Positions 42,050 through 54,522 of a stretch of 64,000 nucleotides of DNA are shown one piece after another. A program made the position numbers and the translations under genes. The notes beneath the pieces were generated by a model, which did no database searches, was not told the DNA's origin, and was given only the letters and a program-made list of their open reading frames with translations. The stretch is from a bacterium (GTDB lineage: Bacteria > Verrucomicrobiota > Verrucomicrobiia > Limisphaerales > UBA8199). The stretch covers positions 1 through 64,000 of the forward strand of contig JAJYHY010000003.1 in NCBI GenBank assembly GCA_021784555.1, in the 5' to 3' direction. Numbering within the stretch: position 1 is the first letter of the stretch; every line of letters begins with the position of its first letter.

Positions 42050-42230
42050 CCTGAGCAACCAATCAGCGTTTCGCGAGTTTCGAGAAGAGTTCTTGTCGAT
42101 TCACTATCGGGTGTGGCAGCGGATCGGGGATTGGCTGGCCGAGAAAAGGCGCGAACTGCGGAGAAGCATACGTGGGGCCGGATCGGGACGTTCAAACCAG
42201 CCTCACAAGAAATGTCCCACCTGGGACATT
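42050..42230 (+). repeat. Dispersed ~180-bp repeat ending in ATGTCCCACCTGGGACAT (copy 1)
   Basis: Aligns with 54180-54363; palindrome AATGTCCCACCTGGGACATT at 42211-42230. Confidence 0.8.
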
Positions 42231-42307
42231 AGATTAGCCAACCGAGAAAGTGCGAATTCCGAGGATGCATCCGCTGGAGTCGGTCGGGACGTTCGAACCA
42301 GCTTCAC

Positions 42308-42335
42308 AAAAAATGTCCCACCTGGGACATTTTTT
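42308..42335 (-). terminator. 28-nt palindrome with A/T tracts, terminator-like, 2 bp after the PaaX-like stop
   Basis: AAAAAATGTCCCA-CC-TGGGACATTTTTT, perfect 13-bp arms. Confidence 0.75.
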
Positions 42336-42337
42336 CG

Positions 42338-43159
42338 TCAGGCCGATTTAGGGGCTCCGAATTGCTTGCTGAGTGCTGCCATCACCTCTGTCCGACGGCG
42401 CCAGGCCTCTCGTCCCAGGTAGCCCGGCGGCAGAATCCGTTCGGGCAAGAGCGGGTCCCGGTCCATGGCTGCCAGCCAACCGGCTCGCTCGGTGGCCACC
42501 CAGAACTGGAGCGCCTGCGCGTGCGTCTTGCTCTGCGGAGACTTGGCGGGCATTTCCCGTAGTATGCGCGCATGCTCCGTATAGCAAGCGCTGATCATCT
42601 CCCAATTCCAGGCACTAGACACAATTTGGGCGTCGGATTCATCGCCGCATGGCCGCCCGTCAAACAGAAGAAGTGACTGCACGTTGGTCCGTCCCTCCGC
42701 AAGGATCTGCCGCTGCTCGGTGACCGGGTCGGGCGTGATCCACACGCTGCCCTGCAGGCATCCGAAGTGTCTGTTCCGCAAGTATCGGCGCAACCACTTG
42801 CGCTCGGTATTCCGGGACATCGGAATGTCGAACAGAACCAACCGCCACCGCCCGTCCCAAGCGCGTGACCACCAGGTTTGCGGATCTCGCCCGCCTAAGG
42901 CATGCAACCGACCTGCTTCGGTAAGCCGATAGAGCCGGTCCTTCGCCGCCTCGGGCGATCTCTCTACCAAGCTCTGCCGTTCGAGCTTGGCCAACTCGTC
43001 CCCAAAGCCATTGCGGTAAGCCCAGCTCTCGAAGGAATCCGTCAGGTTTCTGAACGTGGGATGCATAAACGGATCCGCCGCCCAGAGGAGGAAGTAGAGA
43101 AACTCTTCGGTTCTGGCTCTCATGACAGTGAAACTGACAAGAACTCGGAGAAAAGACAA
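42338..43159 (-). CDS. PaaX-family transcriptional regulator-like protein (alternative start 43123)
   Basis: Winged-helix N-terminus; WDGRWRLVLFDIPMSRNTERKWLRRYLRNRHFGCLQGSVWITPDP typical of the Cas2-like central domain of PaaX. Confidence 0.75.
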   Translation of the reverse strand: MSFLRVLVSFTVMRARTEEFLYFLLWAADPFMHPTFRNLTDSFESWAYRNGFGDELAKLERQSLVERSPEAAKDRLYRLTEAGRLHALGGRDPQTWWSRAWDGRWRLVLFDIPMSRNTERKWLRRYLRNRHFGCLQGSVWITPDPVTEQRQILAEGRTNVQSLLLFDGRPCGDESDAQIVSSAWNWEMISACYTEHARILREMPAKSPQSKTHAQALQFWVATERAGWLAAMDRDPLLPERILPPGYLGREAWRRRTEVMAALSKQFGAPKSA

Positions 43160-43169
43160 GGCCAGACTT

Positions 43170-43187
43170 ATGCCCCACCTGGGACAT
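43170..43187. repeat. Palindrome copy 3 upstream of the PaaX-like gene
   Basis: ATGCCCCACCTGGGACAT, one mismatch to copies 1, 2 and 4. Confidence 0.75.
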
Positions 43188-43284
43188 CGGATTGGTCAGG
43201 CTCCCAGATTCTCAGGGGTGCTCAACGAGTGCCTGCACTTACTATTGCCGAACCCCGGACCTCATCTCGAATTCCAGACTTCAA

Positions 43285-43878
43285 TCACGGCGGTTCCGAA
43301 ACCGGTCGCGAGACATGCGGCGTGTTAGGTCCGGACCTCCGCGGCGACCGGATTCTCGGCATGAGCCGCGCCATGGCCAGGGCGGTGCGGGCCGCTTCGG
43401 CGCCGCGGTTGTGAGTCTTGCCGAGGCAGCGGGCGCGGGCCTGCTCCTCGTTTTCGAGCAGGAGGACTTCATGGATGACGGGTACCTCGTAGCGGAGTTG
43501 GATCTCCATCAGGGCGCGGCTGACCGCCTCGCCGATGTGCGCGGCGTGAACGGTCTCGCCCCGCAGAATGACGCCCAGGCAGATGATGGCGCCGAGATTC
43601 GGCATGGAGGGCGGGGGTGAGCGGCGGCGGGTGTGGTTGTGCGGCGCGGAATGACCTGCCGGTTCCGAGGCTTCTCGAGCCAGGCACGCTGCCACCAACG
43701 GAATCTCATAGGCGCCAGGCACCTTAACGACGCGAATCCTGCGGGCGCCGGCGCGCTTCAGCTCGGCCCTGGCCGCGCGCACCATGGCCTCCACGTAGCG
43801 CGCATTGTATTCCGAGGCGACGACGGCAAAGGACTCAGCACCGGCCTGGAGGACGGTCTTGGCGATGGGTGTCAACAT
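43285..43878 (-). CDS. ribH: 6,7-dimethyl-8-ribityllumazine synthase (in-frame extension to 44175 possible)
   Basis: VVASEYNARYVEAMVRAARAEL, VKVPGAYEIPLVA, LGVILRGETVHAAHIGEAVSRALMEIQL. Confidence 0.88.
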   Translation of the reverse strand: MLTPIAKTVLQAGAESFAVVASEYNARYVEAMVRAARAELKRAGARRIRVVKVPGAYEIPLVAACLAREASEPAGHSAPHNHTRRRSPPPSMPNLGAIICLGVILRGETVHAAHIGEAVSRALMEIQLRYEVPVIHEVLLLENEEQARARCLGKTHNRGAEAARTALAMARLMPRIRSPRRSGPNTPHVSRPVSEPP

Positions 43879-43880
43879 AC

Positions 43881-44048
43881 TGGAGTGATGAAGTAATGGA
43901 GTGATGGAGTAATGAAGTAATGGAGTAATGAAGTAATGGAGTGATGGAGTAATGGAGTGATGGAGTAATGGAGTGATGGAGTAATGGAGTGATGGAGTAA
44001 TGGAGTGATGGAGTGATGGAGTAATGGAGTGATGAAGTAATGGAGTGA
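43881..44048. repeat. 21 tandem octamers, consensus TGGAGTRA
   Basis: Parsed unit by unit; period exactly 8 bp over 168 bp. Confidence 0.97.
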
Positions 44049-44174
44049 TAGAACGGTGGAGCGACGGGGTGCGTGGTGTGTTGGCATAGCAATCCATCAC
44101 TCCACCGCTCCACCACTCCAGTACCCCCAGAGAATTACATCGCTGTGTATAGGTCTCATTGGGCGTGGTTGGCA

Positions 44175-53994: not shown

Positions 53995-54179
53995 TTCATT
54001 AGTTGTTAGAGCAGGCTTATCAGTTCCTGCCTGATACTGGAGAAAGCATGAAACATTTGGCGCGCCTGCGCTTTCCTTCCTTTGCCCATTTATTCTCCTT
54101 TTTTGTCATTTAAATCCAATTAACGTCCCTTTTATAGCAGAGAAGCCCGATTCATATCGGCCTGACAACGCGTGGGTCA

Positions 54180-54363
54180 GAGGTCCGAGCAAGCAATCAG
54201 CTTCTTGCGAGTTTTAAGAAAATTTCTCGTGGATTCACTGTTGGACGTGGCAGCGGTTCGGGGATTGGCCGGCCAAGAAGAGGTGCGAACGGCGGAGGCG
54301 CATCCGGGGAGTCGGTCGGAGCGTTCAAGCCTGCCTCACAAAAAATGTCCCACCTGGGACATT
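54180..54363 (+). repeat. Dispersed ~180-bp repeat, copy 4
   Basis: Aligns with 42050-42230; palindrome AATGTCCCACCTGGGACATT at 54344-54363. Confidence 0.8.
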
Positions 54364-54522
54364 GGATTGGCCCGATCTGAGCAACCTCGTACCACAAGGG
54401 GGGCCCGGCGAAAGACGCACAAGAAATTATTTCAAACTGGTCACTTTGTAACACGCTGCGAACAGGGCACTTACAAGAACACGATTTTCCGCCTGATGGT
54501 TTGCTCAGACCTCTGTGGGTAC

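Follow-up and report, generated by a model that had tools for sequence, protein, structure and literature searches.

The window, as we call the whole 64,000-nucleotide stretch of verrucomicrobial DNA that was analysed, contains a gene for a PaaX-like protein lying between two copies of a palindrome, and two further copies of the palindrome are found within a longer repeat, the carrier (Table 1). All four copies had been pointed out in a reading of the DNA made from its letters only (the sequence-only reading), and each was recovered at its position, including the single mismatch in the copy ahead of the gene and the perfect 28-nt copy just beyond the stop codon; by chance, 0.00 copies would be expected in the window. 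Two 13-nt arms enclose a CC/GG centre, which gives the palindrome an orientation.

Table 1. Palindromes, repeats and the PaaX-like gene in the window.
Feature	Position	Strand	Remarks
Carrier repeat	42051..42240	+	~190 nt; copies ~80% identical elsewhere in the genome
Dispersed palindrome	42211..42230	+	terminates the ~190-nt repeated carrier
Palindrome, 3' end of unit (AAAAAATGTCCCACCTGGGACATTTTTT)	42308..42335	+	28 nt, 2 bp past the stop codon
PaaX-like gene, 261 aa	42338..43123	-	predicted winged-helix N-terminus, Cas2-like domain (residues ~87-168; D99, K109), PaaX_C
Degenerate palindrome, 5' end of unit	43170..43187	+	one mismatch, 46 bp ahead of the ATG
Second carrier copy	54178..54372	+	contains the palindrome at 54344-54363

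The description of the palindrome as a dispersed repeat was borne out across the 8.8-Mb genome (658 contigs), where an 18-mer search gave 15 exact and 25 one-mismatch places, 40 altogether, and the reversed-sequence control gave 0. The palindrome pattern is far beyond chance. At least 12 of the 40 genomic palindromes occur in inverted doublets with a spacing of 34-39 nt and an always identical relative orientation, and these doublets resemble REPINs (PMC3116915). The carrier is partly tandem at 42244-42331, with a period of 101, and further partial copies of it are present in the genome; its origin as a derivative of the palindrome-bounded gene was considered and rejected, as the carrier is not derived from that unit. 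An array of 8-bp repeats (TAATGGAG/TGATGGAG) occupies 43878-44060, upstream of a riboflavin-synthase-like reading frame.

The reading frame matches the PaaX_M (Cas2-like) domain at 1.1e-17 and PaaX_C at 1.6e-4, and the two domains are found in 50/50 and 49/50 members of the family, respectively. Its score against the PaaX equivalog TIGR02277, 59.8 bits, misses the cut-off of 264.55 widely, indicating that the protein is a relative of PaaX and not the phenylacetate regulator. The best fold matches of its AlphaFold model (mean pLDDT 83.8) are E. coli PaaX (8a39) and Rv0674 (3kfw), followed by weaker matches to several Cas2 structures. The sequence-only reading had noted that the central domain of PaaX-type proteins is Cas2-like and had proposed looking for the Cas2 catalytic aspartates in a structural model. 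Both the PaaX_M match and the Cas2 profiles and folds agree with the former, the profiles matching family residues 93-128 (1.3e-5 in one member) and the Pfam Cas2 model matching 11/50 family members. As to the latter, D99 closes strand 1 of the Cas2-like domain (model strand 93-98), the position of the Cas2 metal-site aspartate, and does not vary among 55/55 relatives; in the aligned regions of E. coli PaaX and Rv0674, the two PaaX-type relatives with solved structures, there is no Asp at this position. A profile search for a Y1 domain in the protein gave no match. Viral carriage was also considered and rejected, as no relatives were present in viral contigs and no viral-library fold match fell below an E of 0.001.

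Palindrome-bounded units in related genomes

A first search covered 58 related genomes and recovered the gene in only 7 of them, most copies lying between two palindromes whose sequence varies from unit to unit. Sampling was widened with a search of the order and a GTDB scan (52 loci, apparently all Verrucomicrobiota to judge from their titles or bin names), and bracketing statistics were obtained for the 46 units with both flanks available. Strong palindromes are present on both sides in 30/46 units and on at least one side in 38/46, so that the bracketing claimed for the window is a general property; in some diverged units the palindromes are not recognisable. Over 28 nt, the identity of left and right palindromes from the same unit is 0.886, a value reached by 0 of 302 permutations, as compared with 0.548 between units. 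Their placement is also constrained: the upstream palindrome usually lies 34-40 nt (~36) ahead of the start codon throughout the family, and the downstream one lies -8 to ~12 nt from the stop codon in most units. Units from different genera are 75-90% identical over ~900 nt in blastn comparisons, and for many pairs this homology begins and ends ~10 nt or less from the outer edges of the palindromes, the flanks being mostly unrelated between loci, apart from a few syntenic pairs. Each unit holds one ORF in ~0.9 kb, and neither cas1 nor an array. As judged from these alignments, palindrome-gene-palindrome is a ~0.9-kb unit with sharp ends that is found at many unrelated loci.

Several genomes contain units in multiple copies or in stages of decay. 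There are four units in G036, one frame-disrupted unit in G117 together with shortened copies beside palindromes at three other loci, and unit fragments in G154 and G092. At an orthologous locus in genus g52, the complete palindrome-gene-palindrome arrangement occurs in G214 and G216, a single palindrome lies between the corresponding flanks in G219, and palindrome and gene are both absent from G241; between G214 and G216 the cores of both palindromes have changed jointly (TCGCATATGCGA to TCCCACGTGGGA). For whole units, neither a target-site duplication nor a clean empty site was pinned down, the three solo-palindrome comparisons having aligned poorly, and locus L179, tried first for an empty site, was uninformative because its two genes are not neighbours in related genomes.

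The variation of the palindromes between units was compared with that of the protein. Residue 109, which adjoins the invariant R108 in helix 1 of the Cas2-like domain, completely resolves the dinucleotide XY in the core TGTXYCA among 23 units, better than any other column (TG with E, CC with K, CG with A, TC with V and AA with I). It was again the top column among 60 units, with exceptions. When relatedness was controlled by using 23 disjoint close pairs, residue 109 ranked 1 of 226 columns (p = 0.004, uncorrected), and when only the most similar pairs were used other columns outranked it. We regard this covariation as a lead for recognition, not as proof of it.

Dispersed palindromes and the presence of the gene

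In order to relate the palindrome to the gene at the level of genomes, we called a genome palindrome-rich if it held 8 or more matches to a degenerate core, a pattern that misses some unit cores. Among 320 genomes of the order, 27 are palindrome-rich, 52 have the gene and 20 have both. The gene is thus present in 20/27 palindrome-rich genomes versus 32/293 others (odds ratio 23, Fisher 1.8e-12, with kinship ignored). Moreover, 12 gene-less members of the family have zero exact copies of the palindrome, contrary to an equal abundance in relatives lacking the gene. The suggestion that repeat abundance tracks the gene holds in this comparison, but not in every genome: seven match-rich genomes have no detected gene (G084, G312, G048, G071, G072, G219 and G053), and genomes such as G084 and G312, with many matches, make the association strong and not absolute. 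Part of these cases could reflect incompleteness, loss or unrelated repeats, and G219 can serve as an example of a loss that leaves solo palindromes behind. In G084 (L283, L291), where the PaaX-like gene was not detected, the TGTCCCACCTGGGACA core seen in the window is present ~28 times and has long A/T arms. In G312 (L290, L298), repeats of TGTCGCATATGGGACA are 76 nt apart and apparently represent a different repeat; a tandem array of mixed core is among the 64 degenerate-pattern matches of this genome. Most genomes of the order have one or two copies of a parS-like site (TGTTCCACGTGGAACA), which forms the background of the degenerate pattern.

Dispersed copies mostly share the core of the resident unit, as in G148, G036, G216, G307 and others: nearly all of those in G148 are TGTTGCACCTGCAACA, those in G036 have the cores of three of its four units, and the cores in G216 and G307 matched the prediction. 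An exception is G214, where dispersed cores fit the unit of a sister species and not its own, and in G284 the match with the resident unit is only partial. In G148 the first three base pairs outside the common arms are site-specific and yet complementary, at 20, 22 and 17 of 25 copies where ~12, 12 and 8 would be expected, which suggests that it is the hairpin as such that is maintained or copied. The orientation of neighbouring genes was classified for 45 intergenic copies from G000, G036 and G148, with 16 of them between convergent, 20 between tandem and 9 between divergent gene pairs; the ORF calls used are approximate, and a few G000 doublets were counted twice. Palindromes scored within ORFs probably fall in over-called ORFs. 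The many copies between convergent genes indicate that these palindromes are not simply promoter operators and argue against a pure operator role.

A putative mobile element and its relation to known systems

A bracketed gene at many unrelated sites, accompanied by scattered single palindromes, looks like an undescribed mobile repeat-plus-protein system. We therefore favour, with some confidence, the reading that the unit is a palindrome-bounded mobile element encoding its own palindrome-recognising PaaX/Cas2-like protein. Comparative data suggest that this protein recognises the palindrome and probably mobilises it. In the mechanism that we propose, the protein would bind its own palindrome as a dimer, with specificity drawn partly from the Cas2-like domain (residue 109 beside R108), and would then act on it, possibly by nicking an extruded hairpin in a metal-dependent reaction that involves D99. 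This action would copy or move units and, in trans, non-autonomous palindromes, much as in REP/RAYT or IS200/IS605 systems but with a different, non-HUH protein. The solo state would arise most simply if the two palindromes recombined with each other, although a unit may instead have inserted into a single palindrome, and the upstream palindrome may additionally mediate autoregulation. The stronger proposal is a tentative one, which may well claim too much: that palindrome-bounded elements form a new class of bacterial mobile DNA whose only mobility protein is the one with the PaaX/Cas2 fold, its Cas2-like domain both reading and cutting the palindrome and spreading non-autonomous REP-like copies in trans. 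The Cas2 fold would then have a DNA-mobilising role outside CRISPR.

The sequence-only reading had left two possibilities side by side, an autoregulated gene whose operator or terminator has spread, and a unit analogous to REP/RAYT in which a Cas2-like protein acts on palindromes. We prefer the latter because left and right palindromes match family-wide, homology ends at the palindromes, dispersed copies are matched in their cores, a solo palindrome occupies the same locus in a relative, and copies lie in convergent positions. An ordinary autoregulating PaaX-type repressor, with operators on both sides of its gene and dispersed copies that form a regulon or have spread otherwise, seems unlikely to us. 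It would account for the PaaX fold and winged helix, autoregulation would also predict the fixed upstream spacing of ~36 nt, and covariation of protein and palindrome is equally expected of a repressor and its operator. It fits poorly, however, with a matched palindrome right after the stop codon across the family, with unit homology that stops at the palindromes, with 16/45 intergenic copies between convergent genes, and with the existence of remnant units and of a solo palindrome at the same locus.

That the palindromes are instead owned by another transposase, such as a Y1 RAYT, the PaaX-like gene being a passenger between two copies, appears to us more improbable still. There are 18 Y1-family matches in the window's genome, and in some genera solo palindromes lie within larger inverted-repeat elements (CCATGAACC...GGTTCATGG), as this explanation would have it, but 0/18 Y1 loci have the palindrome within flanks of ~1.5 kb, and RAYT ownership was rejected on this ground. 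In addition, PaaX-like genes carry adjacent palindromes of many different sequences order-wide, and the palindrome sequence tracks the PaaX-like protein. We give very little credence to the palindromes being unconnected with the protein and serving as transcription terminators or structural repeats. The 28-nt copy past the stop codon does end in six T, and convergent genes commonly have REP-like repeats between them; against this, terminator and sigma-70 promoter scans found nothing at the palindromes, the 28-nt copy included, the T tract is absent from most palindromes of the family, and neither the matched copies upstream of the gene nor the genome-level association would be expected of terminators.

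REP-like palindromes are widespread, and the known cases are tied to HUH transposases. The system favoured here, a mobile unit with its own PaaX/Cas2-like protein, has much in common with REP/REPIN sequences and RAYT (TnpA-REP) proteins of Pseudomonas and E. coli (PMC3116915, PMC2817692): the gene lies near palindromes, these flank a dedicated gene and are matched to it in sequence, singlets and inverted doublets are dispersed between genes, and one genome contains several families, each with a protein of its own. It differs in that palindromes stand at both ends of units found at many loci and in that a PaaX/Cas2-like protein takes the place of the HUH Y1 transposase; because the protein family is different, the system falls outside RAYT despite an anatomy like that of REP/RAYT or IS200. 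Short of a systematic scan, the known tags GTAG/CGTC were not identified. Like IS200/IS605 elements, which consist of a single small gene with subterminal palindromes (PMC3116915), the unit combines one small gene with palindromes, but its protein has no Y1 match, and its nearly perfect palindromes mark the outer limits of the unit. Discrete ends common to copies at unrelated loci are shared with IS elements. The protein resembles the PaaX repressors (8a39, 3kfw) in fold, PaaX_M and PaaX_C, and departs from them in its score far below the equivalog cut-off, its aspartate at the Cas2 position and its bracketed, multicopy gene. With the Cas2 of CRISPR-Cas systems it shares a ferredoxin-like domain, detectable in sequence, and an Asp ending strand 1; Cas2 itself is stand-alone and accompanied by cas1 and a CRISPR array, whereas here the domain is fused between a winged helix and PaaX_C in a single-ORF unit.

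In the open-access literature, subscription papers being outside the search, we found no description of a palindrome/PaaX-like unit and no joint treatment of PaaX and Cas2, and a survey of REP sequences (PMC3733652) mentions neither PaaX nor this palindrome motif. One paper in which PaaX, insertion sequences and palindromes all come up is apparently unrelated, to judge from its title and term counts. If the proposed reading is correct, a REP-like strategy has evolved more than once, with a second, unrelated protein, the Cas2 fold acts on repeats outside CRISPR, and some "PaaX regulators" annotated in Verrucomicrobiota are parts of mobile elements. With so many matched pairs of protein and palindrome, recognition can be tested directly.

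Palindromes in some genomes ride in larger repeats, which could be moved by other enzymes. Solo palindromes in G036 and G068-G071 (L213-L232, L263-L282) are often located inside the larger inverted repeat CCATGAACC...GGTTCATGG, which is MITE-like and present on both sides at 8/21 sites in G068-G071. Another palindromic repeat, ~66 bp in length and seen at ~563-632 of L179, is dispersed on both strands in genomes of genus g52.
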